This document shows, piece by piece, positions 33,309-55,554 of a stretch of 64,000 bases of DNA; the first letter of the stretch is position 1, and every line of letters begins with the position of its first letter. Made by a program: the position numbers and the translations under genes. Origin of the DNA: Chloropicon primus. Taxonomy: Eukaryota; Chlorophyta; Chloropicophyceae; Chloropicales; Chloropicaceae. Where the stretch lies: positions 248,001 to 312,000 of the forward strand of contig CP060767.1 of NCBI GenBank assembly GCA_023205875.1, in the 5' to 3' direction. A model generated the notes under the pieces. The model saw nothing but the letters and a program-made list of their open reading frames with translations, did not search any database and had not been told where the DNA came from.

Positions 33309-36300
33309 TTAGGAAGGGGAGGAGCCTAATGAGTAAGGGTCACTGGAGACTTGGACGGAGAAGACCTGCCTCTTGTCCTTGACGCCCTTGAAGGAGCGCA
33401 TTCCCTTGTCATTGAGGTCGATGTCGACCCACTTGCCCTCGTTCGCGAACTCCATGCCCTTGAGGAAGCAGGACGGGTGGTCCCGGTCGTCCCCGAACCC
33501 GAGGACTTGGCTCAGGTCGGCGTAGGAGGACAAGTGAATGTCTCCCGGCTTGGTGTTCTTCGCGACGCGGGCGGACAGGTTGACCATTGGGCCAAAGTAG
33601 TCGGCCCGGCCGGTCTGGACGTGGGGGGTCACCTTGGTGGGCATGCCGTAGCAGATGCCGATCTGGACGAGGACCATGTGCCGCATCTGCAACGACATCT
33701 TGTAGAATGCATTGTGAGTGGAGAAGAATGAAAACAGCGAATCCTCGCCGTTTTCACCATCCATCTCATCAAATTTTTCGGTCGACGAGACATGCGATAT
33801 CCCGGCACTCCCCATCTTCTCCTCCTCGTCATAAAAGGAGGAAAATTCACCATTGTCACTGTCAAGGCTTCGTTCGTTCTTCCCTGAATTGTGAAAGCTT
33901 TCCTCTTCGCCTTCTTCCAACCCCAATAACGGGTCGCTCGAGTTCCAGTCCGCCCGCCTGAGAATGAGCTGCAGGTGGACGCTCCAAGCGACAGCGTCGT
34001 CCACGGTGGGGAAGGACAGGAAGAAGCACCCCGTCCCGACCTCCTGGCTCTCGTACCCGTTGTACCTCGCCAGCAAGATTCGCACGGTCTGAGAAAAGTT
34101 GTCCACGGCCTTGCTCGCGAGACCCGACTTTTGGAAGGCCTGCGCGACTCTGGGGTAGGTGAACACCAGGGCGACGTGCTCGCCGTGGGCGCCGGGAGCA
34201 TTCTGCGCACCAACGGAGAGGATGCGCTGGGACTCCAAAGGTCCAAAGACGTTAGTGCGGTCCTGCAGCACTTTGGGCAGCATCTCGATCAGCTTGACGG
34301 GCTGAGCAAAGTACCTGACGTCGTGGGCCCCCAAGTCCGTGACTTGTGTTTGACTCAAGGACAATCCCCTCTGCCACTTGCTGTCGAAGAAGGATGAGGA
34401 GAGCACAGTCTGGCCACCGCTCGCGATGTGTGCCAGCTCCAGAGCTTGCAGGATGCCCTTGTACTTGTAAGAGATCGTGTGACCCGCACTGCTTGATCTG
34501 TAGGTCTCAGAATCAAACAAGGAAAATTTCTCGATGTGGTCCACGTGGGCGGACATGGCAACGCAGGGGCCATTGAACAGCGGAGTACCTCGAGACGAGC
34601 GGTAACTTTTGTCGTAACCAAACGCTTCGTTGATGGACTTTGGCCACGGGTACTCCATGAGCGTGGTCTGCGCTGCAAGAGTGAACCTCACGGCAGATGA
34701 AGAGGTCTTGAAAGCGATCATCATCATTTGCTGCGGACTGTCCACCTCCTCCACCGTGCGGATGACGTACCCGCCAAACTGGGAGACAAGGGCCTCAAGG
34801 GTAGAGGACACAATGTCCACAGCTTGGTGGTGCTCATTCGTGAAGTACATTGTATCACTTGCTTCTTTGAGCCCAAGCTTTTCGAGGGCATCATCAAGGG
34901 CTCCAACGTTTTCCATGTCGCTGTGGTCCCTTCCTGTAATTGTGAAAGATTGACTTCTGCCCAATCCTGACCTTGCAGACTCGTTCAGAGGGTTTTGGTA
35001 GTCCGGCACGAATACTGGAGATACAAGGGCATCCGATGCGGTCAGGGCGTCTCTCTTTACATCCACCGGGGCGTTCTTGCTTGCACGCTCACGCTTTCCG
35101 ATCAATGTGATGAAGTTTTCAACAACACCAAAGAAACGAGAGGGCTCGATGATCGCGCACACAATGGCAACCTTGCCGTCCATCGAGGGAACGATGTTCA
35201 TGCCCTGTCCCTTGTCCAGCATATCAACATCTCGGAGAGCTGGGAACACGCGCTCACAAACGGAAGACCTCGCCGGAGACACTTGAAGAATACGGATGGG
35301 AAGACCTTCCTCATCAATCTGGTAGCGGCCCAGGTCCTCGAAGATGGGGTATCCTGCTGCACCCTCATCCCCGGTCGCCATCAACTGTCTCCAAGCAGCC
35401 TCGCTTACGAGAATCTGTCCTCCGTGGCCAACATCTGACAACATGCTCGTCGTCTGCCAAGGCTTGCCTCCATAAGCAACCCTCCTTGTCGTTGGATGAG
35501 ACTTTGCCATGTAAGTGCCCCCTTTCGCAAAGTGCACTGCCATCCGCACCCTTGGTCCGGACCAAACGTACTTGTTCCTGTACAACTTGGATTCGACTTT
35601 CTCGCACTCGTGCAGGTTCTGCACGGCTGGCGGCCAATCGTACTTGAGCAAGTCTTCCTGGACTTTGAAACAGAACAGCAAGGACGTGACCACGTTGGGG
35701 AACATGCACTGGAAAGCGTCTCCTTCCGTGTCCACCTCGTGGCCTCCGAGCTCGGCCAATGCGTTCCTCATGATCTCGTCATGGGCCTCTTGCAACAGGA
35801 GGTAGGCGTCCGCGTCTTGCTCGCAGAGCTTTGTGGACGACTGGATGTCGGTGAAAATGAAGATGCAATCCCTGGTGTTGTCTGAATCCAAAGTTGCGTC
35901 GTTGGTCAAACAAACAGATCCTTCCTCGGCACTAAGCTTGCCGGCCTTTGTTCCGGTGCCCTGGAGGTAGGTGTACACGGAGTTGTTCAGCTTCCTCAAC
36001 CATTCTTCCTCACGTGCACGTTCTTTCTGTCGTTTTTGGTAGCGCCATACAAAGTAGCCAGCAAGGCCAGCTATGCACAAGCACGCAAGGGTGACTCCGA
36101 CCGCAACACCGATGATGGTTTCGGTGTTTCCTTTCCGCATATTCGGGATCGGAATGACTGAGGGCGAGACCACTTGAGGGGATGGCAGGCCTGCGTTGCT
36201 GACGCCCGTGACGTGAGCACTGAATAGCGTTCCATTGGTGATTTGACTTGGAGGTATAGTGCTCTCGATCATCGTCTCGTTTCCACTCACTGCTACCTTA

Positions 36301-39300
36301 TCGATGACGTCCCTGCCCCGCAAAAGTTTGACGGCGTATTGACTGATACCGCTGTTGCTCATGAACGCATCCCACTTGACGCGGTAATGGCCAGCAACGT
36401 CCACGTCAAGCGCTACCTTGACCCCTGTCACATTGGGGGGCAGCAAATCAATTGTGGTGCCTGCGGAAGTTATGTTGTTCCCCTTGACTCCAGTCATATC
36501 ATAGGCATTCACGATGACGTAGTAAGTCTCGCCATCGACCAAGGCCATGTGTCTCTCCTCCAAATTCCAATTGTGCCGAATCATCGTGTCATTTGGGCCT
36601 ATGAACTCGACTCTGCCAATGTTCGTCATAGGGTTCACGTTGTCATCCCCTGGATTAGTTCCGATGCCGAACTCATACTTGATGGTTGCGTTGAAGTTCT
36701 TGGGAAGGTCATCTTGTAGCTCATACCTAGGAAAGGTGAAACTGAGCTGCGTGGGTTCACTCGAATACTTCTTTGCAAGAACATCGCACTGGTCAATCGT
36801 AGAGTCCTGCGTAAGGAAGACGCACATGGGCGGCACGATGTCACTGCAGGCCTCATGAAAGTCCGTGTCCTCTGCGGTGACATCCAAAGCTTCGCAAAAA
36901 TCTGGAAGAGTGCCACACACTCCACCATTGCCACTGATATCCAATCTTTCAATGGTGGTTGTATTCTGGCAGAGGTAGGGATCAATCGGCCCGCTGTAAT
37001 TGTTGTAGGACAAGGTAGCTTGCCGCACGGCCTGCTTCGACATCAGGTCCCATGGGATGAAGCCTGAGAGCTTTTGATTCTCTGAGATGTAGACATTCCA
37101 CGGCATATGCTCGATCTCTTTCGAGATATTCAGGTACTTCAGGTTTGTGTTGTACTCCACAGCAAAAATGTGGTTGAATTTTTCGTCCCTCTCGTTCACG
37201 GTCATCTCTTCGCCGTCGCTCAAGAGCCTCCGCCCGTCTTGCGTTCCACCCTCGATCTTGGACGGAAGTGGTGATCCCAAGGCTTTGATGGCAGGCAGCG
37301 ATACCGAGACGAGGTTCTCATTGCTGCCTATGACGAAAGAGCCCGCGACATGCGTCAAGCTCGTGAGCTGGTCAACACTTGTCATGCCAAGGTTGTTAAA
37401 GAGCGCAAAGGAACCATTGATGGTTGCAAGATTCTCAAGACCTCTCAAGTTCAGGAGCTTCTGGTTCAGTTGGACGTCGAGAGAGCCGCCGATCTCCATC
37501 AGGAACTCAAGTCCAGAAAGGTTCTTGAGCAGTGGATTGTACTTGAGCGTCAGACTGGTGCCGATACGAGTGAGCGAATACACGCCATCCATGCTCTTGA
37601 GGTACGCATTGTTGATTATGGTCAACTTGCCACCGATGGACTGAACGCCACCCAAGCCCTTCAAGCTTCTCAAGCCTGTCATTTTCAGCAGCACCGACTG
37701 ACCAATCCTGCTGAGATTCTCCAGACCGACCAGATTCTTGAGCCTAACATTTCCATCCAGGACCAAAGACCGACCCAAGTCTCTCAAAGACTTTAGGCTC
37801 GATATGTCTGTGAGCTCATTGTTGGCCTGGAATATGATCGAGTCGGTCACATTGAGAAGCTTCTCCGTGCCTTTCAAGCTCCTCAGAGTGGGGCAATCCA
37901 CGATGATCAAGCTGCCTTTGATCTTTGTCACATTCTCAAGAGCGGAAAGATCCTCGATTGCGGATCCGTTCATGGTCCGGCAAGCTCCGATGATAATGCT
38001 TCTGCCTAACTCCCCAGTAACCGTGCTTCTGTGCTTTGCGATGAAGCTTGTGAGGTTGGCTACTGTGGATATGGGCTCCACGAACTCGTAGCTCACTGAT
38101 GTGCCACCGCACTGCTGTATGGTTCTGTTTCCGTTCATTCTCGCGAGGTTCAAGTCAATCTGGCTCATGGTTTTTTGCTTCAACTGCAATCGCACGAACT
38201 TGTAGCTCGAATCCACTTTGAGCACAAAGGGGGGCGGCAGCTCCGAGCCGGACGCTACGTAAAGGTCCAAGCCCCTCTTGTAAGTGTCATTGTAGATAGA
38301 AACTGCGAACTGGTCCAGCGTTGGTCCATTCAGCATCGGGTTGTTGAAGTTGTGGCCACTGGAGAAGTCATTGCAAATGGCTTGGTCCCCGTTGATAGAG
38401 GTGTGAAACCTGTTGAAGTTCAAAACCAAGACAGATCTTTCCCCAATGTTGTCCATGTCGTAATCGTTGTTGGTGTTCAGCTGCCAGGAGCACGACGTGT
38501 CCTTGAACTTTTGCATTTCGATGCCAAGGCTATCAAAGATAATCTCACCATCCGTGTCAAGCTTCGTCGTGTACCCGAGCGGGCTGCAGCCGATGACGTT
38601 GTCCGAGAATCCTGAGGTCAGGTTGAGAGCTTCGCAGGACTCGCCAATGTTGTTGCCAGCCCAAAGGTCCATGAAGCTTTGCAAACGAGTCACGTCTTCG
38701 AAGTCTTCGTAATAATCCTCTACGTTCTCCCACGTGTCGTCGGGGTCATCCCAGCCCTCGTACTGAAAGTCCTCATCATCGTAAAAGTAATCCGGACTCC
38801 GAACTTCGCTGTTCACTTCTGACATGCACGAGGGCACCGCGCCGCAAAGGTTAATGTTTTGGCCCAAGTCTATCTTTGGGACCCTGGCAAGCAGATCGCA
38901 GTAGGAGTCCGGAATCTGACCGTGGAAGTCGTTGAAGGACAAGTCGACCGAGGTCAAATTGCCCTCAAGACTGTTGAGCCAATCGATCACCGTGGCGATG
39001 GGCATGTGCAAGCGCGGATTGTTCGATATCACAACGGACCCTTCCCCGATCGTCTTGATACGCTGGATCCCCTCCAGCGACTCGAAGTAAGGATTTCCAA
39101 AGATGAAGATGCCCTCATCCACCCCCGTCATCTCGGAGATGGTCGGATTGCCATCCGCCAGCTCCTGAAAGCTCGTTTTCTGCGACCCGTAGAGGGACAT
39201 CCATCCCTGGAGGACGCCGTCATCGAGCTCGACATCGTCGTCCTCTTTCTCAGGCCGCTCGCCATTTTCTCCGGGGGGAGGGGGGTACTGCCTCCATATG

Positions 39301-40322
39301 GGAAAGTAGTTCAGCTCGAGCTCAAATCCAGTGAAGTTGGCGACTTGCCCGTGGTAGGATTCCACGTCGACGTCCAGCTGAATCGCGATCGACTTGTCTC
39401 GCGTCGGTATGAAGGCGTACACGTTTTGCACGTACTCGAGGGAGCTGAAGCCGTCGTCGCCGATGTGGAGCCTGAGGAACAAGCTGTCGTCATCGACGCA
39501 CGTCTGCATGCCAGAAAAGCCTCTGAGCGTCGCGGGCGAGTTGGAGGAGAACGACTGGACGCGGACGCCAATCAAGGTGCCGTCGGGTAGGGCAGGCGGG
39601 AAGTCCATGATCCAGAGGCACGAAACTTCCGTGCCCTGTCCCCCCCTGCTGCTCTCCGCTTCCGAGTTGTAAAAGACGTCCGCCTCCATCGCTTGGATGC
39701 TCACGCCGTCCGGCGAGCAAATCAGTCCCGAGAGAGACGGGTTGAACGCCGCGCCCTGGTAAGGGGCCAGCCCACTCAATTGACTCGCCCGGCTCGCCTT
39801 CTCCGCCCTGGTCAGGTCAGGGGGAGGGCTGTCCCACAGCCTGCTCTGCAACAGCCGCTCCCAATTGATGTCCTCCCTCAAGCCACCCAGCTGGCTCGCC
39901 GCGTTGTTGATATCAGAGGGAGCGCCTGGTATGGGCTCCTGCGCGGTGCCCAAGGCGTTGTCGCTCTCATCATCACCCCCCGTCCAACCAAACACGTCGT
40001 CGTCGTCGTCGTCGTCGTCCTTGGCGGTCCCTCCCGTCACCGTCGGAAACGCCAGGCGGCCCTGCAACTGCGACGGCCTCGAGTCTGTTCCCATCCGCGG
40101 CCCCGGCGGCTCCGTCGGCGTCGGAAGCAGCGTCGCCGGCGTCCTCTCCCTCGAGGGCCGTGAAGAAGACCCTGACCTTCGTGATGCCGGAGGCTGGCCG
40201 TGCCCCAGCGACGAGAGCAAAAAACAAGCGAAAGCGAGAACGACGACGAACTTGTGGAAGGACACTCCGAGGAACCTCGAGAGTGACCTCCCCGGACACC
40301 GCCCTCCCTCGCGCACCGCCAT
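33309..40322 (-). CDS. Giant receptor with CUB/LRR ectodomain and three cyclase-like domains (copy A)
   Basis: 2337 residues, single exon. A signal peptide (FVVVLAFACFLLSSL, about 25-39) is followed by: a CUB-like domain (about 200-340), LRRs of plant type (LTSVDLSFNDFHGQIPDSYC, about 455), a second CUB-like domain (about 578-715), about 270 residues of receptor-L-like repeats (LENVTKIKGSLIIVDCPTL), more LRRs, a fibronectin-III-like part, and one membrane span (IIGVAVGVTLACLCIAGLAG, about 1399-1422). The cytoplasmic part has three class III nucleotidyl-cyclase-like domains. Domain 1 (from about 1485) keeps both metal aspartates (FIFTDIQSST and TEGDAF) but has YGGKPWQTTSML where Asn and Arg are expected. 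Domain 2 (about 1730-2000) is degenerate. Domain 3 (about 2050-2270) lacks the aspartates but has ADYFGPMVNLSARV with Asn and Arg and the adenine-type Asp. cAMP synthesis is inferred. Confidence 0.85.
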   Translation of the reverse strand: MAVREGGRCPGRSLSRFLGVSFHKFVVVLAFACFLLSSLGHGQPPASRRSGSSSRPSRERTPATLLPTPTEPPGPRMGTDSRPSQLQGRLAFPTVTGGTAKDDDDDDDDVFGWTGGDDESDNALGTAQEPIPGAPSDINNAASQLGGLREDINWERLLQSRLWDSPPPDLTRAEKASRASQLSGLAPYQGAAFNPSLSGLICSPDGVSIQAMEADVFYNSEAESSRGGQGTEVSCLWIMDFPPALPDGTLIGVRVQSFSSNSPATLRGFSGMQTCVDDDSLFLRLHIGDDGFSSLEYVQNVYAFIPTRDKSIAIQLDVDVESYHGQVANFTGFELELNYFPIWRQYPPPPGENGERPEKEDDDVELDDGVLQGWMSLYGSQKTSFQELADGNPTISEMTGVDEGIFIFGNPYFESLEGIQRIKTIGEGSVVISNNPRLHMPIATVIDWLNSLEGNLTSVDLSFNDFHGQIPDSYCDLLARVPKIDLGQNINLCGAVPSCMSEVNSEVRSPDYFYDDEDFQYEGWDDPDDTWENVEDYYEDFEDVTRLQSFMDLWAGNNIGESCEALNLTSGFSDNVIGCSPLGYTTKLDTDGEIIFDSLGIEMQKFKDTSCSWQLNTNNDYDMDNIGERSVLVLNFNRFHTSINGDQAICNDFSSGHNFNNPMLNGPTLDQFAVSIYNDTYKRGLDLYVASGSELPPPFVLKVDSSYKFVRLQLKQKTMSQIDLNLARMNGNRTIQQCGGTSVSYEFVEPISTVANLTSFIAKHRSTVTGELGRSIIIGACRTMNGSAIEDLSALENVTKIKGSLIIVDCPTLRSLKGTEKLLNVTDSIIFQANNELTDISSLKSLRDLGRSLVLDGNVRLKNLVGLENLSRIGQSVLLKMTGLRSLKGLGGVQSIGGKLTIINNAYLKSMDGVYSLTRIGTSLTLKYNPLLKNLSGLEFLMEIGGSLDVQLNQKLLNLRGLENLATINGSFALFNNLGMTSVDQLTSLTHVAGSFVIGSNENLVSVSLPAIKALGSPLPSKIEGGTQDGRRLLSDGEEMTVNERDEKFNHIFAVEYNTNLKYLNISKEIEHMPWNVYISENQKLSGFIPWDLMSKQAVRQATLSYNNYSGPIDPYLCQNTTTIERLDISGNGGVCGTLPDFCEALDVTAEDTDFHEACSDIVPPMCVFLTQDSTIDQCDVLAKKYSSEPTQLSFTFPRYELQDDLPKNFNATIKYEFGIGTNPGDDNVNPMTNIGRVEFIGPNDTMIRHNWNLEERHMALVDGETYYVIVNAYDMTGVKGNNITSAGTTIDLLPPNVTGVKVALDVDVAGHYRVKWDAFMSNSGISQYAVKLLRGRDVIDKVAVSGNETMIESTIPPSQITNGTLFSAHVTGVSNAGLPSPQVVSPSVIPIPNMRKGNTETIIGVAVGVTLACLCIAGLAGYFVWRYQKRQKERAREEEWLRKLNNSVYTYLQGTGTKAGKLSAEEGSVCLTNDATLDSDNTRDCIFIFTDIQSSTKLCEQDADAYLLLQEAHDEIMRNALAELGGHEVDTEGDAFQCMFPNVVTSLLFCFKVQEDLLKYDWPPAVQNLHECEKVESKLYRNKYVWSGPRVRMAVHFAKGGTYMAKSHPTTRRVAYGGKPWQTTSMLSDVGHGGQILVSEAAWRQLMATGDEGAAGYPIFEDLGRYQIDEEGLPIRILQVSPARSSVCERVFPALRDVDMLDKGQGMNIVPSMDGKVAIVCAIIEPSRFFGVVENFITLIGKRERASKNAPVDVKRDALTASDALVSPVFVPDYQNPLNESARSGLGRSQSFTITGRDHSDMENVGALDDALEKLGLKEASDTMYFTNEHHQAVDIVSSTLEALVSQFGGYVIRTVEEVDSPQQMMMIAFKTSSSAVRFTLAAQTTLMEYPWPKSINEAFGYDKSYRSSRGTPLFNGPCVAMSAHVDHIEKFSLFDSETYRSSSAGHTISYKYKGILQALELAHIASGGQTVLSSSFFDSKWQRGLSLSQTQVTDLGAHDVRYFAQPVKLIEMLPKVLQDRTNVFGPLESQRILSVGAQNAPGAHGEHVALVFTYPRVAQAFQKSGLASKAVDNFSQTVRILLARYNGYESQEVGTGCFFLSFPTVDDAVAWSVHLQLILRRADWNSSDPLLGLEEGEEESFHNSGKNERSLDSDNGEFSSFYDEEEKMGSAGISHVSSTEKFDEMDGENGEDSLFSFFSTHNAFYKMSLQMRHMVLVQIGICYGMPTKVTPHVQTGRADYFGPMVNLSARVAKNTKPGDIHLSSYADLSQVLGFGDDRDHPSCFLKGMEFANEGKWVDIDLNDKGMRSFKGVKDKRQVFSVQVSSDPYSLGSSPS

Positions 40323-40761
40323 GCCTGCCTTGCGCCTTGCCTTGTCGTAACGCTCGCGAGGACGTTAAACTCCTCTCCTCTTAGAGCTGAGGAATTTTTT
40401 TGGAGACGGAAGATCACTTCCCCGTCCTTCCAGGAGCGTCACGGAGGAGTCCAGGAGATTGGTGCTGGTGAGGAGGAGGAGGGTGATTGGCAGGTAGTTT
40501 AAGATGGCATCCGCGTCTTCCCTTCCCCTTCCTCTTTCGAAAGGTCCCTCACTTGGAATGACTTGTGATGATGATGACGCAGGGAGGAGGCCGATGGTTT
40601 ACTACCGCTAATGTTTTACTTTACACACATCACAAGGATGTTCACATCTGATCTGACACATGGTTACGCCTCCTCCTTCTCCTCCTCCAAACACACACAC
40701 ACACACACACACACTCTCTCTCTCTCTCTCGATCTCTCTCTCGATATCGCACCTCGCAGAC
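40323..40761. promoter_or_regulatory. Promoter region of receptor copy A
   Basis: 439 bases. A CGTAACG motif lies at 40346-40352, 24 bases from the start codon. A compound (CA)n(CT)n microsatellite spans 40690-40745. No gene is seen. Confidence 0.55.
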
Positions 40762-42636
40762 TCACGATGCGTCGCAGAAGGAGGGGCACTGCTCGTTCTC
40801 GCTGTAGTCCTCCAGTCCCAGGGCCCGCCGCGCTTCCTTCCAAAGCTCGTGCGTCTTCATCCTGTACCGCCGGGCCAGGGTGCTCTTGTCTCGCGTCACC
40901 AGGACGTTCAGGTGGTGCGGAATGCCCAGCTCCCTCGTCAGCAAGTAGTGGATGTCGGTGTACGCGCCGTAGAGCGGGTGCTCGGGCCAATACGGGTGAT
41001 CCCGACCCACCCGGTCGGGCTTGGGTTCCCTCAGCCTCCAGTTGCTCGCGATCGAGTACGAGTACTCCTGATCCGTCTGGTAGGGCGCGTACAGCTCCGT
41101 CGTCACCGGCCCGCTCTGGACCCCCGTGCTCTCGTACGCCAGCAGGAGGGCCCCGTGCTGCGTCAGGGTCTCCAGGTCCGAAGGGGGGATCCTCTCGTCC
41201 AAGCCGTTCAGAGTCACCACCGTGTAATTGTCCCCCTTCCGGAAGGACCACTCCCGGTCGCAGTGAAGCTCGCCGGCCCTGTCGTACCACCCGTCCCTCC
41301 AGTTCTGCCGCCACGCCTCGGGGTGCGAGGGGGACGAGTCCGTGCCCCTCACGTGCTCCAGCACCCTCTCCGACTCGCTGTCCATGAGCCAGCACCGGAG
41401 GGACTCCATGCCCGCCTCGCTCGCCAGGACCCGGTCCACCAGGGCCTGGACGGGGTCCTCGGCCTCCGGGGTCCACACCAAGTCGTTCTCTCCCGTGCGC
41501 TGCTCCCCCTCGCTGTCGTCGACCTGGCGGAGGAGGTCCGTGGTGAGCCCCAGCTGCTCCGGGCTCGCCGCGAACACCCAAGCCGCCTGGCAGAACTTGC
41601 GATGGGCGTGGAACCAAGGCTGCTGGTCCCTCTGGGACACCAGGACCTTCCCGTCGACCATCCACTTTGTGGTGGACCACAGGAAGCTCGGCCTCCTCGT
41701 CACCAGGGTCGTCGCGAAGGGGTGGCCCCGAGCCTTCTCGGTCTCCGAGGAGGGCATGTGGGCCACTTGGATCGACACGGGCTTGGTGGCGTCCTCCCTG
41801 GCGCTCCACTTGAGGGCGATCTCCTGGTAGAACACCATCGGGGGCGCGGGGTACTCCCGGATGTCGTTCAGCATGAAGTTCAGGGAGAAGAAGGACCCGT
41901 CGGTGGCGTTGAAGGGCAGCCCGTGCCCCTCGGGGAAGCTCCGGAGGTAGCACGACGTCCCCCCGAGGTCCTCGCTGCAGGTGGTGTCCCCGTGCGTCTC
42001 GAGCGAGTGCATCACGCCATTGTACTCGATGTGCACGTGGTGCGAGTACAGCGGCGGGTGCCCCAGCACTCGACCCGCCTCGTCCACCGGCGCGGCCAAC
42101 TTGCCTGTGATGAACTTGGCCCTCCTCGGCGCCGGAAGCGGGTGAACCCAAACCTGGTGCCAGTCGCTCCCTCCCATGCCGACGAAGGGACCGAACCGGT
42201 AGATCTGCCACCCCGTGCCGCCCGCCTCCCGGCCCTCCCCGTCATCCACCACCTCGCAGGTCCTCATGCTCACGTACCTCTCCTCCTTGGGGTAATCGTT
42301 GTGATTGGGAACGAAGGACTTGTCCCCGAAGAGGTAGGTGTTGAAGATGCCCTCCCTCGCCATGTCGATGGACTCCCACCCTCCAGCCTCGTCGCACTGC
42401 CTCGTCCTCTTCCTCACGTAGTCCGACATCTTGCCCCTCCTGTAGTCCCCGAGCGACAGCAACGCCTCGTCGTCGTCGTGGACCATCACACTTCGACGGC
42501 GCGCAGGCAACGAGGAAGCCGCGGCGGAGTCATGGCGGGTGGTTGGCCTCCGTCCCGCCAGGAACAAGTCCGCGGCAAGGACAAGGACAACGAGCAACCC
42601 GCAAGCAACGAGGGTGACGCGAGGAGGAGGCGCCAT
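40762..42636 (-). CDS. Membrane-anchored or secreted protein of unknown family, paralogue 1
   Basis: 624 residues. A hydrophobic segment at about 8-24 (TLVACGLLVVLVLAADLFLA) acts as signal anchor or signal peptide. The rest is an ectodomain with blocks shared by the three paralogues: MSDYVRKRTRQCDEAGGW, GWQIYRFGPFVG, YSHHVH, HGDTTCSEDLGGTSCYLR followed by PEGHGLPFN, MVFYQEIALKW, WFHAHR and GDNYTVVTLNGL. The spaced His pairs (HH, then HxH after the C-rich block and a beta-rich stretch) recall peptidylglycine/dopamine-beta type copper monooxygenases, but the third His of the first copper site is not found, so this is only a hypothesis. Part of the gene (41127-41727) is identical to paralogue 2. 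Confidence 0.7.
   Translation of the reverse strand: MAPPPRVTLVACGLLVVLVLAADLFLAGRRPTTRHDSAAASSLPARRRSVMVHDDDEALLSLGDYRRGKMSDYVRKRTRQCDEAGGWESIDMAREGIFNTYLFGDKSFVPNHNDYPKEERYVSMRTCEVVDDGEGREAGGTGWQIYRFGPFVGMGGSDWHQVWVHPLPAPRRAKFITGKLAAPVDEAGRVLGHPPLYSHHVHIEYNGVMHSLETHGDTTCSEDLGGTSCYLRSFPEGHGLPFNATDGSFFSLNFMLNDIREYPAPPMVFYQEIALKWSAREDATKPVSIQVAHMPSSETEKARGHPFATTLVTRRPSFLWSTTKWMVDGKVLVSQRDQQPWFHAHRKFCQAAWVFAASPEQLGLTTDLLRQVDDSEGEQRTGENDLVWTPEAEDPVQALVDRVLASEAGMESLRCWLMDSESERVLEHVRGTDSSPSHPEAWRQNWRDGWYDRAGELHCDREWSFRKGDNYTVVTLNGLDERIPPSDLETLTQHGALLLAYESTGVQSGPVTTELYAPYQTDQEYSYSIASNWRLREPKPDRVGRDHPYWPEHPLYGAYTDIHYLLTRELGIPHHLNVLVTRDKSTLARRYRMKTHELWKEARRALGLEDYSENEQCPSFCDAS
41127..41727. repeat. 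600-bp tract identical to 43164-43764
   Basis: By line-by-line reading this stretch matches 43164-43764 with constant offset 2037 and I find no difference, whereas sequence on both sides is clearly diverged in both DNA and protein. It lies wholly inside the coding regions of paralogues 1 and 2. Confidence 0.9.
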
Positions 42637-42858
42637 CGTCTCAGGTTTTCACTGCTGTGGTGGTTGGTTGCCCGCGGACGTTACGATTGCGGATCCACGG
42701 AGACGTTACGAGAAAAAAAATATTGAGATTGAGATCGAGGGGGCTGGAGGGACTTCGACGTCAAAAGGGTGATGGATGGACGGTGATGGATTCTACCTAC
42801 AGCAACAACAGCAAAGGAGTCCAAGGCTCCAGCTTGGTTTAGTTCGGCAAAGTAAAAT

Positions 42859-44661: not shown

Positions 44662-45166
44662 CCTCGCTTTCCTCTCTCTCTCCAAAAAAAACCAGCGCCC
44701 CAGCCGCGGGTCTACCTGTGGACCACAGCACTTTTTTGGGCTACCCGCGCTCCAAGATGGATGGATGGATGAAGTTTTGGTTGGAGCATGCTTTGACACG
44801 ATATGGGGATGGGGATGGGGATTGGGAGGCAGAGAGAGGGTGGAGGGGGGTGGCACTGCAAGATTCACTGTCTCCTGCTCTTTCGATGGATCCCCTCATT
44901 CACTTGGCCTCTCTGCCTCTCCAGTCTGGGCAATCGAGAACTTTCGTGGTCCACATCGTGAGCGAGCTTTGGCACGATGGGAGGCAGAGAGGGGGCACTG
45001 TCTCCTGCTCTTTCGGTGGATCTTCTCACTCACTTGGTCTCTTTCACCTTGGACTCCTGTCTGTCGCGACACCGGATCGATCAAGGCCTCCTGGTGGTTG
45101 TGGTAGTTGTACACATACATAACATGATCTCGTCGTCGTTTCATTTACTCTTGTTGCTGCTGCTCT
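44662..45166. other. Intergenic region with imperfect direct repeats
   Basis: 505 bases. The sequence CACTGTCTCCTGCTCTTTCG occurs at about 44865-44884 and again at about 44997-45016, each followed by a similar GTGGATC..CTCACTTGG stretch, offset about 132 bases. No gene is seen. Confidence 0.5.
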
Positions 45167-47251: not shown

Positions 47252-47469
47252 GGTGCTCGAGCGCTTTGAGGAGCCAAGCCTCTATGAGGGGCGTTACGCC
47301 TTGCGCCTCGGAATAACGCCTTTCATCGAACGATTCGGGTTCCGTGGAGCAGATATCGTGCATTAAAAAGTATTTCATTCGAAGAGAGGCTTGAAGCTAA
47401 CAAAAATCTGTGCTGTGGTCGTCGAGAGACAGCGAAATCGATGGGGTCTCCATCCCAAGGCCAGGTAAA

Positions 47470-50400
47470 CTATTTACCGCCACCGCCGACCTCGCTCACC
47501 TCCCCCGGGGCTTGGACGGAGAAGACCTGCCTCTTGTCCTTGACGCCCTTGAAGGAGCGCATTCCCTTGTCATTGAGGTCGATGTCGACCCACTTGCCCT
47601 CGTTCGCGAACTCCATGCCCTTGAGGAAGCAGGACGGGTGGTCCCGGTCGTCCCCGAACCCGAGGACTTGGCTCAGGTCGGCGTAGGAGGACAAGTGAAT
47701 GTCTCCCGGCTTGGTGTTCTTCGCGACGCGGGCGGACAGGTTGACCATTGGGCCAAAGTAGTCGGCCCGGCCGGTCTGGACGTGGGGGGTCACCTTGGTG
47801 GGCATGCCGTAGCAGATGCCGATCTGGACGAGGACCATGTGCCGCATCTGCACGGACGAGCTGCGGGGAACCGTGCCGGAGAAATCCATGCTGCTCTGGC
47901 TGTCGAAGAGGCCGTCCAGGCTGTTGTGCTCGGGCGAGGACCAGGTCTCGCTGCTGCCCTGGCCCTGCGAGGAGGAGGAGGAGAAGGACGCCGTTCGCAG
48001 GTACTCCTCCATTTCCCTGTCGATGCTCTTGGGCCTGGGCCTCCTCACCTTGCTCAGGAAGCCCTCCTTCGCCTCCATCACGCTGTCGCTCGAGTTCCAG
48101 TCCGCCCGCCTGAGAATGAGCTGCAGGTGGACGCTCCAAGCGACGGCGTCGTCCACGGTGGGGAAGGACAGGAAGAAGCACCCCGTCCCGACCTCCTGGC
48201 TCTCGTACCCGTTGTACCTCGCCAGCAAGATTCGCACGGTCTGAGAAAAGTTGTCCACGGCCTTGCTCGCGAGACCCGACTTTTGGAAGGCCTGCGCGAC
48301 TCTGGGGTAGGTGAACACCAGGGCGACGTGCTCGCCGTGGGCGCCGGGAGCATTCTGCGCACCAACGGAGAGGATGCGCTGGGACTCCAAAGGTCCAAAG
48401 ACGTTAGTGCGGTCCTGCAGCACTTTGGGCAGCATCTCGATCAGCTTGACGGGCTGAGCAAAGTACCTGACGTCGTGGGCCCCCAAGTCCGTGACTTGTG
48501 TTTGACTCAAGGACAATCCCCTCTGCCACTTGCTGTCGAAGAAGGATGAGGAGAGCACAGTCTGGCCACCGCTCGCGATGCGTGCCAGCTCCAGAGCTTG
48601 CAGGATGCCCTTGTACTTGTAAGAGATCGTGTGACCTGAACCGTTTGATCTGTAGGTCTCAGAATCAAACAAGGAAAATTTCTCGATGTGGTCCACGTGG
48701 GCGGACATGGCAACGCAGGGGCCATTGAAGAGAGGGATGCCATCTCTCGAGTAGGGCGGCCCCGCTCTTCCAAACGCTTCGTTGATGGACTTTGGCCACG
48801 GGTACTCCATGAGCGTGGTCTGCGCTGCAAGAGTGAACCTCACGGCAGATGAAGAGGTCTTGAAAGCGATCATCATCATTTGCTGCGGACTGTCCACCTC
48901 CTCCACCGTGCGGATGACGTACCCGCCAAACTGGGAGACAAGGGCCTCAAGGGTAGAGGACACAATGTCCACAGCTTGGTGGTGCTCATTCGTGAAGTAC
49001 ATCGTGGCGTTGGCGTTTTCGTGCCCAGGCCGGTCCGAAGAGCTTCCCAATAGCCTCTTCCTCGACAAGGTCTTCTCCAGCTTGCTCGAAATGCTTCTGT
49101 CGAGCTTCTTCTTGGATACGATAATCGGATTCTTGTACTCTGGGACGAATTCTGGAGATCCCAGCTCGCCCGATGGCTCGGCACTCCTCTTCCCACCCAC
49201 GGAGGCCGTCTTGCTTGCACGCTCACGCTTTCCGATCAATGTGATGAAGTTTTCAACAACACCAAAGAAACGAGAGGGCTCGATGATCGCGCACACAATG
49301 GCAACCTTGCCGTCCATCGAGGGAACGATGTTCATGCCCTGTCCCTCGTCCACCATATCAACATCTCGGAGAGCTGGGAACACGCGCTCACAAACGGAAG
49401 ACCTCGCCGGAGACACTTGAAGAATGCGGATGGGAAGACCCTCTTCGCCAACTTCATAGCTGCCCAGGTCCTCGAAGATGGGGTATCCTGCTGCACCCTC
49501 ATCCCCGGTCGCCATCAACTGTCTCCAAGCAGCCTCGCTTACGAGAATCTGTCCTCCGTGGCCAACATCTGACAACATGCTCGTCGTCTGCCAAGGCTTG
49601 CCTCCATAAGCAACCCTCCTTGTCGTTGGATGAGACTTTGCCATGTAAGTGCCCCCTTTCGCAAAGTGCACTGCCATCCGCACCCTTGGTCCGGACCAAA
49701 CGTACTTGTTCCTGTACAACTTGGATTCGACTTTCTCGCACTCGTGCAGGTTCTGCACGGCTGGCGGCCAATCGTACTTGAGCAAGTCTTCCTGGACTTT
49801 GAAACAGAACAGCAAGGACGTGACCACGTTGGGGAACATGCACTGGAAAGCGTCTCCTTCCGTGTCCACCTCGTGGCCTCCGAGCTCGGCCAATGCGTTC
49901 CTCATGATCTCGTCATGGGCCTCTTGCAACAGGAGGTAGGCGTCCGCGTCTTGCTCGCAGAGCTTTGTGGACGACTGGATGTCGGTGAAAATGAAGATGC
50001 GGTCTTTGCTGTTGTCGGCGTCGAACGTGTAGGAGTCCGAGAGGCTGATGGATCCTTCCTCGGCACTAAGCTTGCCGGCCTTTGTTCCGGTACCCTGGAG
50101 GTAGGTGTACACGGAGTTGTTCAGCTTCCTCAGCCACCGTTCCTCCTTTGTTTTCGCATTTTGTCTCTTGATGTACCTTGCGACAAAGAAAGCAACGATT
50201 CCTGCTGTCAACAGACAGCCCAAAGTCACCCCCACACCGACACCAATGATGACTTGACTATTCATAATTCCCGAGTCTGGCATAGGCACTACTGCAGGGG
50301 ACCTGACCTTTGACGACGGCAAGCCTGCCATGCTGATCCCAACGACCTCCGCACTGAATAGCGTTCCATTGGTCACATCGTTTGGATCCAACAGACCTTG

Positions 50401-53400
50401 CACAGATCTCTGATCCCCTGCAACAGAAGTCACATTGTAGAGCTTGTCGTTGCGAAGCAGTGTCACAGTGTAGTCCTTCACACCACTCAAGCTCTGAAAA
50501 CCGTGCCACGAGATACTGTAAGGGCCATGAATGTCCACATCAAGCAAAACCCGGGCTTCGGTCACGTTCGGTGGCATCAAGTCAATCATCGTCCCCTGAG
50601 ATGTGCGTATTTCCGCCGTAGCTCCTGTGAGGTCGTACGCCTTCATGATCACATAGTACGTCTGCCCATCGACTAGAGATATGTGTCTGTCTTCCACATT
50701 CCACGTATAGCTTACCATGGTGCCGTTCCGCGCCGTGAATTGAACGTCTCGAATGCTCGTCATTGGGTTGACGTTCGCATCGTGCGGCGACGTTCCGATG
50801 CCAAACTCGTATTGAACGCTTGCGTTAAAGCTCTCTGGCAGCTCGTCTTGCAGTTCATACTTGGGGAACATGAAATTGAGCTCCATGGGGTGGCTCGAAA
50901 ACCTAGTGGAGGTCACAGCACATCTCATCTCTGCCGAACTTGCCGACTCCAAGTCGCTGAATATGCAAGTAGGGGCAGAAACGTCTTTGCACGGCTTCTT
51001 CAGGTTCGTGTATAACGCCACGATATGCATGTGGCAGTCATCAGGAACAGAGCCACAGACATCCTCGTTGCCACTTAAGTACACCGTCTCCAACGCGGCA
51101 TCGCTTCTGCAGAGATACGGATCAATCGGTCCCTTGTAGTTGTTGTACACCAAATTCGCCATTCGCACAGCCTTCTTGTTCAGGAGATCCCATGGGATGA
51201 AGCCCGAGAGATATTGGTTGTTTCCAACATAGAAATTCCATGGCAGGCGCTCTATCTCTTCAGAAATGTTGAGCTTCGTCAGGTTCGTGTTGTACTCCAC
51301 AGCAAAAATGCGATTTGAGCTTTCGCTGCTGTTCTCCTCCCCACCGTCGTGCCGCAAGAGTCTCCTCCGATCTTGCCTCGAGTACACAAGTCCTGATGCA
51401 GTCGGTGACCCTATGCCTTTGATGGCAGGCAGCGATACCGAGACGAGGTTCTCATTGCTGCCTATGACGAAAGAACCCGCGACATTCGTCAAGTTTGTGA
51501 GTTGGTCAACACTTTTCAAGGCCGGGTTATTGAAAAGCGCAAACGTCCCTTCCATGGTTGCAAGATTCTCAAGACCTGTCAAGTTCAGGAGCTTCTGGTT
51601 CAGTTGGATGTCGACAGAGCCGCCGATCTCCATCAGGAACTCAAGTCCAGAAAGGCTCTTGAGCCATGGATTGTACTTCACCGACAAGGTAGCGCCAATG
51701 CGGTTCAGGGACAGCATGCCCTTCATGCTCAAGAGGTACGAATTGCTGACTAAAGACATCGCGCCACCGATGGACCGAAGACCACCCAAGCCCCGCAAAC
51801 TCCTCAAGCCTGTTCTCGAAAGCACCAGGGACTCACCGATACGTTGCAAGCTTGCAAGACCGGCCAAACTTCGAAGTTTTCTGTTCCCATCCAAAACAAA
51901 AGATCCACCCAAGTGTTTCAGAGCAGCTAAGCTCCTTATGCTTCTCAGGCCACTGTTGGTTTGGAGTATGATCGAGTCGGTCACATTGAGAAGCTTCTCC
52001 GTGCCTTTCAAGCTCCTCAGAGTGGGGCAATCCACGATGATCAAGCTGCCTTTGATCTTTGTCACATTCTCAAGAGCGGAAAGATCCTCGATTGCGGATC
52101 CGTTCATGGTCCGGCAAGCTCCGATGATAATGCTTCTGCCTAACTCCCCAGTAACCGTGCTTCCGTGCTTTGCGATGAAGCTTGTGAGGTTGGCTACTGT
52201 GGATATGGGCTCCACGAACTCGTAGCTCACTGATGTGCCACCGCACTGCTGTATGGTTCTGTTCCTCGACGGAGCGAGATCCACTATATTCTTCACAGTC
52301 GCTGTCTTCACGAGGTTGAGCTTGACGCTCTTGTAGCTCGGATCCACATTGAGCACAAAGGGGGGCGGCAGCTCCGAGCCTGAAGCCCTGAAAACATCCA
52401 AGCCCCTCTTGTAAGTGTCATTGAAAACAGACACTGTAAACTCATTTATCGTAGGCCCGTTCAAAATCGGGTTGTAAAAGTTGTGACCACTGGAGAAGTC
52501 ATTGCAAATGCCTTGGTCCCCGTTGATAGAGGTGTAGAACTTGTTGAAGTCCAAAACCAAGACAGAGGTACTGTTGGACGCTTCAAACACTTTGGTTTCC
52601 CAGGCACACGAAGTCCCTTTGAACTGCTGCATTTCGATTCCCAGGCTGTCGAACACAATCTCCCCTTGATTGTCAAGCTCGGCCGCATACCCGAGAGGAC
52701 TGCAACTTGTTCGGTGATCGGCCACAGTAAGGGATTGCGGATTGGCTCGGAACGCCACAAGACCACTGGGGAGGTCATCCGGGAACATTGGCTGTTGTCC
52801 ACCACCATCATTGACGCATGATGACCCAAGACTTGTTCCGGCCCAAAGGTGAACAAAACTTTGCAATTGGGCCGCATCGTTCAAGCTCTCGTCGCTTTTC
52901 ACGAAGCTTTCATTCTCAAGGATGGCCGATTTCACTCCTGACACGCACGAGGGCACCGTGCCGCAAACATTAATGTTATGGCTCATGTCCAGCTTTGAGA
53001 CCCTCGCAAGCAGATCGCAGTAGGAGTCCGGAATTTGGCCATAAAAATCGTTGAAGGACAAGTCGACCGAGGTCAAATTGCCCTCAAGACTGTTGAGCCA
53101 ATCGATCACCGTGGCGATGGGCATGTGCAAGCGCTGATTGTTCGATATCACAACGGACCCTTCCCCGATCGTCTTGATACGCTGGATCCCCTCCAGCGAC
53201 TCGAGGTTGAGGTTGTTGATCACAAAAATGCCTCCTTCCACCCCCGTCATCTCGGAGATGATCGGATTGCCATCCGCCATCTCCTGGAAGGTCATTTCCT
53301 GCGACCCGTAGAGCGTCATCCATCCCGGGAGGACGCCGTCATCGAGCTCGATATCTTCTTCACGCGTGGCATTGCTGGTCGACTGCAACAACTCCCTTCG

Positions 53401-55554
53401 CGGCCCCCTCTTTTCCCTTAGAGAGGGCCTTTGCTGCAGGGGAAAGTATGTCAGGTCTAGCTCAAACCCGGACACGTCTGCCGTTCCCTCTTCCGACTTG
53501 TCAAAAGCGACATCAAGCTGAATCGCGATCGATCTGTCTTGCGTCGGAATGAAAGTGAACGTGTCCTCAATGTTCTCCAACGAGCTGAAACCGCTGCCAC
53601 CAATGTGGCACTTCAGGAACATGTTGCTGTCATCCTCCACACAAGTTTGGGTGCCCGTGAACGCCGTCAGTGTCGCGGGCGAGTTTGACCGGAAGGACTG
53701 GATCTTGATCCCAATCAGCGTCCCTTCAGGAACGGTGTCAGGAAAGTTGAGGAGCCAGAGACACGAAAGCTCGGATCCCACACTCGGCCCTATGACGTCG
53801 CTGTCGTAGAAGATATACCCTTGAGCAGACTGTATGCTGACCCCATCGGGGCTGCACATGAAACCCGCAAGGGATGGGTCAGTGGCAGCTCTGGCTTGGA
53901 GTGCCGCCAGACCATTGAGCTTCCTGGATCGGACCGTCTTCTCCTCCTTGGTCAAGGTAGGGGGAGGCTTGTCCCAAGACGGCATTTCCAGCAAGTTCTG
54001 GTCAAACGCAATGTCCTCCCCAAAGAGGTCCGCAGTGGGGTCGTAGGAGAAAATCTCGGGGGAGGACCCGAGCACCGGCTCCGACTCGTCTTCAAGATCA
54101 AAGCGCTCTGGCCTCACTCTCTCTTGAAACCTGAAAGTCTCGGCAGAGCCCCTGGAGATCGTCGACTCGTCGTCATCATAGTAGAACTCATCATAGAAGT
54201 CGTAGTAATAGTACGAGTCCTCGTCGTAGTAATCCCAATCTCCTACTGCAACCCCTTCCTGCCCCCTGACCTTCACGATGTAATCGACCACGTCGTCGTA
54301 CTCGAACACACCAAATCGGGCGTCGGGTAGGTTCTCTTCCAGGTAGTCCGCTACGGCGCCCCCATCCCCCACGCCCCGGCCCACATCATCCGGCTCGTTG
54401 TAATCGTCGTCGTCCGGGGGTTCATCGTCGCTGTCGTCATCGGGGTCATAATCCTCATCAGCCATGAAGTCCTCCGGCCCACGGTCGTCCTCCAGGATAA
54501 CACCCACGACGGTGTCCTTTTCAATCTCCCCGGACGTCACCAGTTCCTTCAGTCCGGGAAACGTCTCCACGACCTTCACCTCGCCTGTCTCGGGATTGCC
54601 GATAGCGACTCCAACCACGCCCAGGCCTCCTCCTCCCTCCTCCTCGTCCTCGTTTTCGTCTTCGTCATCATCGTCGTCTTCGTCATCATCATCCTCGTCC
54701 TCGTCCTCGTCCTCGTCGTCGCCGTCGCCCTCGTTCCCCTTCAGCATCTGTCCGATTTCTTTTGCCACGGGTTTCAGGTCTCCCGCGGTGCTGACCACGA
54801 CAATTTTTTCGTTGTCTCTGGGGGGTCTCGTCGCAGGCGAGTCCGAGTCAGAATCTTCGCCAGGGAGGTCTGCCATGGAGTCCTCCGACCCACGCGTGGG
54901 AACGATGGGACCAGAATTGACGTTGTCGTCGTCATTGTCTTTGTCGAAAGGAAGTGTCATCCCGTCCCCAGTCATGTCAACTCCTGGGTCCGCGTCGGCG
55001 ACGTCGACATCGGGGACTGCGTCGTCATCAGCTTCGTCAGCTTCGTCAGCTTCGTCAGCTTCGTCAGCTTCGTCAGTCTGCGGCCTCTCACTCACGTCAT
55101 CTTCCTCGGCATAGAAGTACCTGTTCCTGGCTGTTCCTGGGAGCATGTCCGGCGGCCGCATGCCGGGGGGCAGCATGTTGGAGATCATATCCGCGAGGGG
55201 ATCTCTCAACTCCGGCAGCATATCGGGCAAGGCAGGGCTGTGCGTGACCCTGCCTTCTTCCTTTTTCTCCCTCCGCCGCTCTTGCTTGGCGTCAACCCCA
55301 TCTTTGTACACTTCCACCTTCCTCTGCTTGACTTCCTCCTTCCTCTGCTTGACTTCCTCCTTGACCTCTTGTTGCCTCTGCTTGACTTCCTCCTTGACCT
55401 TTTGTTGGCTCATCGCGGCGACCGCCTCTTTCTTCGCGTTCTGCCCCATGAGAAGCATCTTCTTCTTGTCGTCCTGAGCGGCGAGGAGAGGCGCCATGAG
55501 CAAGGCGAGGCATGCCACGGCGAGCACAAGCCGTCTCCACGAGAACGAAGCCAT
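47470..55554 (-). CDS. Giant receptor with CUB/LRR ectodomain and three cyclase-like domains (copy B)
   Basis: About 2694 residues from the ATG at 55554, giving a clean signal peptide (RRLVLAVACLALLMAPLLAA). Compared with copy A it has an extra N-terminal region of about 550 residues: Lys/Glu/Gln repeats (KQRKEEVKQRKVEV) followed by long Asp/Glu runs and Tyr-rich acidic stretches. Then come the same CUB-like, LRR, CUB-like, receptor-L-like, LRR and fibronectin-like parts, one membrane span (VIIGVGVGVTLGCLLTAGIV, about 1765-1788) and three cyclase-like domains. Domain 1 has FIFTDIQSST (about 1855) and TEGDAF; domain 3 has ADYFGPMVNLSARV (about 2600). The split of catalytic residues is the same as in copy A. 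Long DNA tracts are nearly identical with copy A. Confidence 0.85.
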   Translation of the reverse strand: MASFSWRRLVLAVACLALLMAPLLAAQDDKKKMLLMGQNAKKEAVAAMSQQKVKEEVKQRQQEVKEEVKQRKEEVKQRKVEVYKDGVDAKQERRREKKEEGRVTHSPALPDMLPELRDPLADMISNMLPPGMRPPDMLPGTARNRYFYAEEDDVSERPQTDEADEADEADEADEADDDAVPDVDVADADPGVDMTGDGMTLPFDKDNDDDNVNSGPIVPTRGSEDSMADLPGEDSDSDSPATRPPRDNEKIVVVSTAGDLKPVAKEIGQMLKGNEGDGDDEDEDEDEDDDDEDDDDDEDENEDEEEGGGGLGVVGVAIGNPETGEVKVVETFPGLKELVTSGEIEKDTVVGVILEDDRGPEDFMADEDYDPDDDSDDEPPDDDDYNEPDDVGRGVGDGGAVADYLEENLPDARFGVFEYDDVVDYIVKVRGQEGVAVGDWDYYDEDSYYYYDFYDEFYYDDDESTISRGSAETFRFQERVRPERFDLEDESEPVLGSSPEIFSYDPTADLFGEDIAFDQNLLEMPSWDKPPPTLTKEEKTVRSRKLNGLAALQARAATDPSLAGFMCSPDGVSIQSAQGYIFYDSDVIGPSVGSELSCLWLLNFPDTVPEGTLIGIKIQSFRSNSPATLTAFTGTQTCVEDDSNMFLKCHIGGSGFSSLENIEDTFTFIPTQDRSIAIQLDVAFDKSEEGTADVSGFELDLTYFPLQQRPSLREKRGPRRELLQSTSNATREEDIELDDGVLPGWMTLYGSQEMTFQEMADGNPIISEMTGVEGGIFVINNLNLESLEGIQRIKTIGEGSVVISNNQRLHMPIATVIDWLNSLEGNLTSVDLSFNDFYGQIPDSYCDLLARVSKLDMSHNINVCGTVPSCVSGVKSAILENESFVKSDESLNDAAQLQSFVHLWAGTSLGSSCVNDGGGQQPMFPDDLPSGLVAFRANPQSLTVADHRTSCSPLGYAAELDNQGEIVFDSLGIEMQQFKGTSCAWETKVFEASNSTSVLVLDFNKFYTSINGDQGICNDFSSGHNFYNPILNGPTINEFTVSVFNDTYKRGLDVFRASGSELPPPFVLNVDPSYKSVKLNLVKTATVKNIVDLAPSRNRTIQQCGGTSVSYEFVEPISTVANLTSFIAKHGSTVTGELGRSIIIGACRTMNGSAIEDLSALENVTKIKGSLIIVDCPTLRSLKGTEKLLNVTDSIILQTNSGLRSIRSLAALKHLGGSFVLDGNRKLRSLAGLASLQRIGESLVLSRTGLRSLRGLGGLRSIGGAMSLVSNSYLLSMKGMLSLNRIGATLSVKYNPWLKSLSGLEFLMEIGGSVDIQLNQKLLNLTGLENLATMEGTFALFNNPALKSVDQLTNLTNVAGSFVIGSNENLVSVSLPAIKGIGSPTASGLVYSRQDRRRLLRHDGGEENSSESSNRIFAVEYNTNLTKLNISEEIERLPWNFYVGNNQYLSGFIPWDLLNKKAVRMANLVYNNYKGPIDPYLCRSDAALETVYLSGNEDVCGSVPDDCHMHIVALYTNLKKPCKDVSAPTCIFSDLESASSAEMRCAVTSTRFSSHPMELNFMFPKYELQDELPESFNASVQYEFGIGTSPHDANVNPMTSIRDVQFTARNGTMVSYTWNVEDRHISLVDGQTYYVIMKAYDLTGATAEIRTSQGTMIDLMPPNVTEARVLLDVDIHGPYSISWHGFQSLSGVKDYTVTLLRNDKLYNVTSVAGDQRSVQGLLDPNDVTNGTLFSAEVVGISMAGLPSSKVRSPAVVPMPDSGIMNSQVIIGVGVGVTLGCLLTAGIVAFFVARYIKRQNAKTKEERWLRKLNNSVYTYLQGTGTKAGKLSAEEGSISLSDSYTFDADNSKDRIFIFTDIQSSTKLCEQDADAYLLLQEAHDEIMRNALAELGGHEVDTEGDAFQCMFPNVVTSLLFCFKVQEDLLKYDWPPAVQNLHECEKVESKLYRNKYVWSGPRVRMAVHFAKGGTYMAKSHPTTRRVAYGGKPWQTTSMLSDVGHGGQILVSEAAWRQLMATGDEGAAGYPIFEDLGSYEVGEEGLPIRILQVSPARSSVCERVFPALRDVDMVDEGQGMNIVPSMDGKVAIVCAIIEPSRFFGVVENFITLIGKRERASKTASVGGKRSAEPSGELGSPEFVPEYKNPIIVSKKKLDRSISSKLEKTLSRKRLLGSSSDRPGHENANATMYFTNEHHQAVDIVSSTLEALVSQFGGYVIRTVEEVDSPQQMMMIAFKTSSSAVRFTLAAQTTLMEYPWPKSINEAFGRAGPPYSRDGIPLFNGPCVAMSAHVDHIEKFSLFDSETYRSNGSGHTISYKYKGILQALELARIASGGQTVLSSSFFDSKWQRGLSLSQTQVTDLGAHDVRYFAQPVKLIEMLPKVLQDRTNVFGPLESQRILSVGAQNAPGAHGEHVALVFTYPRVAQAFQKSGLASKAVDNFSQTVRILLARYNGYESQEVGTGCFFLSFPTVDDAVAWSVHLQLILRRADWNSSDSVMEAKEGFLSKVRRPRPKSIDREMEEYLRTASFSSSSSQGQGSSETWSSPEHNSLDGLFDSQSSMDFSGTVPRSSSVQMRHMVLVQIGICYGMPTKVTPHVQTGRADYFGPMVNLSARVAKNTKPGDIHLSSYADLSQVLGFGDDRDHPSCFLKGMEFANEGKWVDIDLNDKGMRSFKGVKDKRQVFSVQAPGEVSEVGGGGK

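Follow-up and report, generated by a model that had tools for sequence, protein, structure and literature searches.

A putative single-pass receptor adenylyl cyclase of Chloropicon primus with complementary active-site halves in the first and third of three tandem cyclase-type domains

We analyzed a window of 64,000 nucleotides from the green alga Chloropicon primus (GCA_023205875.1, contig CP060767.1, positions 248,001 to 312,000 of the forward strand; coordinates below count from the first letter of this window), which encodes two giant receptors, here termed A and B. Our favored explanation, which we hold at a probability of roughly two in three (0.68), is that both are single-pass receptor adenylyl cyclases (ACs) with one composite site formed by cyclase domains 1 and 3 (D1 and D3), a pseudo-cyclase domain 2 (D2) between them and gating by a ligand. 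Domain 1 would contribute both metal-binding Asp residues, while domain 3 would contribute Asn and Arg for the transition state as well as the Asp that specifies adenine together with Gln or Lys. ATP as the substrate, catalytic activity, ligand gating and a role of domain 2 are predicted features. Because related proteins of green algae retain the three-domain arrangement, it probably represents a genuine type of receptor enzyme that has received little description.

Receptor A corresponds to an uninterrupted open reading frame (ORF) on the minus strand (33309-40364; 2351 amino acids), as does receptor B (47470-55629; 2719 amino acids). Counted from the first Met, residue 15 of the open frame in A and residue 26 in B, the coding regions up to the stop span 33309-40322 and 47470-55554, respectively. 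The public protein P0003, annotated as “adenylate cyclase [Chloropicon primus]”, is 100% identical to residues 1440-2351 of receptor A and differs elsewhere. Its gene model begins at residue 91 of the receptor A frame and thus leaves out the signal-peptide-like stretch after Met15.

In receptor A, the metal half is located in domain 1 (35274-35873; all features of both receptors are on the minus strand), with the motifs FTDIQSST (35832-35855) and DTEGDAF (35712-35732); the Asn/Arg position is occupied by PWQTTSM (35442-35462). Domain 3 (33333-34184), the transition-state and base half, shows FTYPRV without Asp (34146-34163), YESQEVGTG (34029-34055), GRADYFG (33591-33611) and VNLSAR (33567-33584). 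Domain 2 (34272-35177), which was recognized with family profiles, is degenerate and has neither the metal Asp residues nor Asn/Arg. Receptor B is built alike, with domain 1 at 49408-50007 (FTDIQSST 49966-49989, DTEGDAF 49846-49866, PWQTTSM 49576-49596), a degenerate domain 2 at 48424-49311, recognized with its own family profile, and domain 3 at 47509-48336 (FTYPRV 48298-48315, GRADYFG 47752-47772, VNLSAR 47728-47745). Both ORFs and all motifs named in an earlier sequence-only reading of this DNA are present, each motif once per protein, and its central claim that domain 1 holds the metal Asp residues and domain 3 the Asn/Arg and the adenine Asp was borne out by conservation of these residues beyond chance.

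The receptors were searched domain by domain with the Guanylate_cyc profile of Pfam (PF00211; cut-off 21.9 bits). Domain 1 was matched in A (32.1 bits) and in B, domain 3 lay at the cut-off with just the second half of the profile aligned, and domain 2 had no PF00211 match in either receptor. Additionally, a PDB sequence search related domain 1 to the receptor-type adenylate cyclase GRESAG4.1 (E 5.5e-9) and, weakly, domain 3 to GRESAG4.3 (E 0.0032), with no match better than chance for domain 2. The degenerate character ascribed earlier to the middle domain agrees with our data, and the domain is still matched by family profiles: domain 2 of receptor A was hit by the domain 1 profile (independent E value 4.9e-16) and the domain 3 profile (1.5e-10) in a database of 30 sequences. 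Two single-chain AlphaFold models (24 and 29 sequences; predicted template modelling scores 0.70 and 0.62) support a cyclase fold of domains 1 and 3, so that these two domains agree with the class III nucleotidyl cyclases in both profile and fold. Among the matches listed, domain 1 was nearest to GRESAG4.1/4.3 by sequence as well as by structure (Foldseek, VIA-align).

The earlier reading stressed that both receptors keep the split. This is correct, but they do not represent two independent cases, an option that a codon comparison ruled out. The cyclase domains contain windows of 100% DNA identity (A residues 1541-1640, 1847-1896, 1997-2096 and 2253-2302), as does one block of the ectodomain (A residues 787-836), while identity is only 38-75% in the linkers, around the membrane helix and over much of the ectodomain, linkers going down to 38% and 52%. 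This patchwork probably reflects gene conversion across the cyclase cores. As the cores are nearly identical in DNA, the shared motif set counts as one observation.

Independent evidence comes from relatives. Three further members were found in the C. primus genome on contigs C1, C20 and C4, with identities of 34, 36 and 40%, respectively, where domain 1 aligns best. Close public relatives are P0004-P0008 and P0017-P0020, distant ones include P0010 of Nannochloris and P0051 of Micractinium tetrahymenae, both Trebouxiophyceae as opposed to the Chloropicophyceae to which C. primus belongs, and metagenome proteins are among the relatives as well. In the underlying search, just 12 rows with PF00211 were taken among the best 120 of 334 matches, the others having LRR (leucine-rich repeat), fn3 or other domains. 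The order D1-D2-D3 was found in 29 of 30 proteins with domain profiles built from 17 of them, the nine fuller proteins P0044-P0052 lying outside these 17; the exception, P0053, has domain 1 only. The same order and split thus occur in other green algae, where the earlier reading had proposed to look for them.

Residues were counted in 28 aligned three-domain members, 25 of which are below 80% identity to one another (median pairwise identity 0.29). All 28 carry the complementary split. Domain 1 has the metal Asp/Asp in 28/28, the canonical Asn in 2/28, the canonical Arg in none and the adenine Asp in none. Conversely, domain 3 has Asn and Arg in 28/28, the adenine Asp in 27/28, and Asp at the metal positions in 0/28; its Lys position is K in 14, Q in 13 and D in one member. 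Domain 2 never has Asn or Arg at the respective positions. According to column entropy, the domain 1 Asp/Asp and the domain 3 Asn/Arg are invariant across the 25 non-redundant members, while the complementary positions mostly vary like ordinary columns; an exception is the second metal position of domain 3, which is fairly conserved as another residue (entropy rank 65 of 207). The count does not include P0053; P0052, which the domain 1 start pattern missed; P0018 and P0019, which both end within the domain 3 motif; the fragments P0021-P0026, five of which reach domain 3 and all five show GRADYF..VNLxAR; the window's own gene P0003; P0009 (several degenerate domains); P0015 (two domains); P0016 and P0030 (full set in one domain); and P0031-P0043, other cyclase types, eight of which entered only the tree, as outside sequences.

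The maximum-likelihood tree was built from 15 members, leaving out C20 and others, together with 11 outside rows. It placed domain 1 on one branch (98/97) and domain 3 on another (98/100). Domain 2 formed one branch apart from the very long C4 row, and domains 1 and 2 clustered together (96/92). That domains 1 and 3 are each one branch fits a single old origin, and the three-domain array probably arose once by duplication. Unusual layouts were also noted. In the C20 paralogue (L021:5613-8741), the open frame encodes a peroxiredoxin-like domain (AhpC-TSA, E 3.6e-16) after one and before the other of cyclase domains 1 and 3, which may be a fusion or an unspliced frame. The metagenome protein P0009 (2570 amino acids) shows, by eye, a long row of degenerate cyclase-like domains. 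P0015 from Myrmecia bisecta combines LRRs with two cyclase-like domains, of which the first lacks the second metal Asp and the second carries GRADYFGPLVNRCAR; it may be a reduced relative of the three-domain receptors.

The receptor character was deduced from the N-terminal parts, with signal-peptide-like starts and membrane spans called from hydropathy alone. Receptor A has one signal-peptide-like stretch (40215-40322; peak 2.16 at residue 32) and one predicted transmembrane helix (36048-36116, residues about 1417-1439; 2.52 from residue 1417). Receptor B likewise has a signal-peptide-like N-terminus (55480-55554; 2.37 from residue 34) and one predicted helix (50170-50247, residues about 1795-1820; 2.29 from residue 1799), with an additional weak peak ahead of the first Met. 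These profiles point to a single-pass topology of both proteins. The ectodomain label above the Pfam cut-off is Recep_L_domain (PF01030), with three stretches in A (best 37284-37493; whole-protein E 3.7e-9) and five in B (best 51406-51627; whole-protein E 8.5e-10), and LRR models stayed below the cut-off in both. Of the single-pass CUB/LRR receptor proposed earlier, the single span thus stood. The CUB assignment found no support from sequence: Pfam at E up to 10 gave no match, and in PDB sequence searches the candidate region at residues 190-360 of receptor A had no match and that at residues 570-770 one unrelated match only (E 0.62). Fibronectin domains were rejected as well, since Pfam fn3 appeared in the relatives P0010 (23.8 bits) and P0051 (17.6 bits) alone, below the cut-off of 25, and was not listed for A and B. 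The juxtamembrane part of receptor A aligned weakly by blastp with P0045, P0051, P0013 and P0010 (E 2e-8 to 4e-7; 13 sequences).

Taken together, the receptors would comprise a signal-peptide-like start, a receptor-L/LRR-like ectodomain, one membrane helix and a cytoplasmic tail with three cyclase-type domains. Because D1:D1, D1:D2, D2:D3 and D3:D3 each lack one half, D1:D3 is the sole pairing that offers both metal Asp residues along with Asn, Arg and the Asp that specifies adenine. Such a pair, within one chain or between two, would form one complete class III AC site, and the mirror site would be dead as at the mammalian C1:C2 interface. Domain 2 would be a pseudo-cyclase that completes no site and is retained as a scaffold or regulator. 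We suggest that an outside ligand may shift domains 1 and 3 into register, upon which cAMP (cyclic AMP) would rise.

Several observations weigh against this explanation. Domain 3 barely qualifies by profile (21.6 bits in A, just under the PF00211 cut-off, and 22.5 in B, just over it). The start pattern used for domain 1 demanded the first Asp, so the Asp count holds partly by construction; P0052, which this pattern missed, does have the first Asp and fits by eye, and the truncated metagenome relative P0019 has Glu instead. The adenine Asp is replaced by Arg in paralogue C4, and the Chloropicon receptors have Gln, not Lys, at the adenine-specifying position of domain 3. The absence of Asn and Arg from domain 1, as claimed earlier, holds for receptors A and B, which have Ser at the position preceding the canonical Arg; relatives often have Arg or Lys at this position (21/28) and Gln at the Asn position (15/28), and this half of domain 1 therefore cannot be called clearly inactive. 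The displaced residue may shape the dead site or may hint at self-use. Moreover, the Foldseek and VIA-align matches listed for both models included no C1:C2-like pair, although the output does not state which domains were aligned. Alignments with soluble two-domain chains (sAC 8co7, AC9 9u3p, 7pdd, 6yii and others) covered 572-678 columns at a root-mean-square deviation of 24-26 Å and a target template modelling score (TM) of 0.26-0.30, a length too short for domains 1 and 3 both in full. The full-length AC5 and AC9 chains, aligned over 937-1098 columns and thus possibly extending to domain 3, fitted poorly too, at 34-42 Å and a target TM of 0.15-0.19. No two-domain AC was among the best 50 VIA-align matches listed for either model.

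The failure of the single-chain models to yield a C1:C2-like pair would be in line with an intermolecular composite site, a version of the favored explanation in which D1 of one chain pairs with D3 of a second and D2 with D2. Class III cyclase domains act as dimers, so that in a chain with an odd number of them one has no partner, and single-span receptors usually signal as dimers; a dimer of three-domain chains would leave no domain unpaired. Yet the long low-confidence linkers (residues 322-395 and 705-783 in model 1) equally permit pairing in cis, and monomer models say little on dimers. We therefore consider pairing in trans a serious but tentative option, somewhat short of an even chance. 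More doubtful is an extended form, in which two chains assemble with two D1:D3 sites flanking a D2:D2' pseudo-cyclase dimer that would switch the receptor from its ligand-free to its active state, and the receptors are the main or only source of cAMP in C. primus. If true, it would reveal an ancient green-algal family of the LRR type, a plant-like LRR receptor wired to a second messenger rather than to a kinase.

Apart from the geometry of the favored D1:D3 site, it is conceivable that the tail binds nucleotides or partner proteins without any catalysis. The degeneration of domain 2, the half-degenerate state of domains 1 and 3, the Gln for Lys in the Chloropicon receptors and the loss of the adenine Asp in paralogue C4 are in line with such a pseudo-cyclase receptor. 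On the other hand, invariance of the D1 Asp/Asp and the D3 Asn/Arg at a median identity of 29% would be difficult to account for if the tail did not catalyze. Decay would not be expected to leave precisely the complementary halves intact, which weakens this proposal, and we regard it as unlikely.

A complementary site might also act on GTP or another substrate. For comparison, we searched the organism's own genome (17.58 Mb, 20 contigs; 20 chromosomes and 17.4 Mb according to PMC6731263 and PMC12301720) with PF00211, ignoring introns and scoring the best candidates alone. Six of the 49 matches belong to the three-domain receptor family, and the other 43 merge to 39 places. By eye, Lys and Asp are absent from the two base-specifying positions in all 39, the first of which is Glu in 37 places. 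Glu at this position is a guanylyl sign. Receptors A and B and the three paralogues are thus the only adenylyl-type class III candidates found by this search. The adenylyl specificity assumed in the earlier reading is supported by residues only, namely the domain 3 Asp (27/28) and the absence of Glu at the Lys position, as opposed to the 37 of 39 other places. A different substrate would agree with the Gln at the domain 3 Lys position (13/28) and with the 30 guanylyl cyclases that Lemieux et al. report for C. primus (PMC6731263), which may or may not include the receptors. On balance, we rate it a shade below the non-catalytic tail. Least probable is a domain 1 homodimer that employs the displaced Arg (N+3) and Gln for Asn, with domain 3 purely regulatory, as suggested by those residues in the relatives. 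Against it, the window receptors have Ser at N+3, Glu occupies the canonical Arg position of domain 1 in 13/28 members, and the adenine Asp and Asn/Arg set resides in domain 3.

The genome search revealed that division of paired cyclases is habitual in C. primus; this lends credibility to the receptor finding but also makes it less exceptional. By eye, the full Asp/Asp/Asn/Arg set was present in 17 of 17 lone cyclase places, while 10 of 11 neighboring pairs were split, with the first Asp, at a minimum, lost from one partner and both Asn and Arg lost from its neighbor. The split pairs lie on C5, C7 (three), C9, C11, C12, C15 (two) and C18 (L032, L034, L042-L047, L050); several are near copies, leaving about six or seven distinct ones, and the remaining pair, on C7, has two full domains. 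Nearly all split pairs are guanylyl-type, with a domain order that varies between genes, and in some cases (C9, C11, C12, C5, C18) the neighboring domains share one open frame, as judged from raw frames rather than gene models. Seven phosphodiesterase (PF00233) and 97 cyclic nucleotide-binding (PF00027) matches in the same genome indicate that possible downstream cAMP parts exist.

A single chain whose active-site residues are shared in complementary fashion by two domains, as in 28/28 members here, is known from the mammalian membrane ACs (ADCY1-9), in which one domain has the metal Asp pair and the other the Asn, the Arg and the adenine Asp. The C1:C2 interface of these enzymes is described as holding an active site together with a degenerate one (PMC6592433), and the enzymes as having two cyclase domains and two clusters of six membrane helices (PMC12414865). 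The receptors differ from them in lacking two six-helix blocks, with one helix and a signal-peptide-like stretch by hydropathy, and in having three domains on one tail, a pseudo-domain in between and a large ectodomain. The trypanosome receptor-type adenylate cyclases (GRESAG4.1/4.3) are single-span receptors with an extracellular part; they have one cyclase domain with the full residue set and act as homodimers, unlike receptors A and B with three domains and a split set.

Tandem cyclase domains with complementary halves also occur in Toxoplasma TgATPaseP-GC, where Asp is replaced by Glu in GC1 and Asn by Leu and Arg by Met in GC2 (PMC6592433). In the C. primus split pairs, the Asp of the first metal motif has likewise often given way to Glu. 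In contrast to the receptors, the Toxoplasma protein has two domains in inverted order, a proposed guanylyl specificity, a P-type ATPase part and many spans. Fungal ACs of the Cyr1 type share the combination of LRR and class III AC with the receptors and differ by PP2C, one cyclase domain and no predicted membrane helix; PP2C was not listed for A and B with Pfam at E up to 10. The fungal-type protein P0016 resembles the receptors in motif style (GGYEVKTEGDAF, MDYFGPMVN) and has the full set in one domain. In a survey of 101 eukaryotes, LRR and cyclase were found in one gene in fungi only (PMC2939053). The transcriptome protein P0030 likewise has three tandem cyclase-like domains, but the full set (FTDIQSST, VKTIGDSF, GRADYFGPTVNKAAR) resides in the first alone, without a split.

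The sequence-only reading had regarded the design as foreign to any described family. This needs to be narrowed: complementary split class III sites are already known from mammalian ACs and Toxoplasma, and the part that seems undescribed is a single-pass receptor bearing three such domains in an array. Among the matches listed in the open-licence literature (titles and abstract openings), we found no description of a three-domain cyclase receptor, and exact phrases for three-domain cyclases had no match there. A term search of the main text of the C. primus genome paper did not find the words “receptor” and “cAMP” (PMC6731263).

If the proposed D1:D3 site is real, it would directly couple recognition outside the cell to cAMP in green algae. 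To our knowledge, little is known about the source and use of cAMP in these organisms. It would also mean that the split C1:C2 solution of the animal type has a counterpart attained in a different context, where a pseudo-cyclase domain was retained between the halves. The receptors offer a testable case for the assembly of an odd number of dimerizing domains.

Between receptors A and B, the window contains two further minus-strand ORFs (40762-42648 and 42859-44895). They had no match in a Pfam search at E up to 0.01 and, by eye, have the look of a tandem duplicate with long shared DNA stretches.
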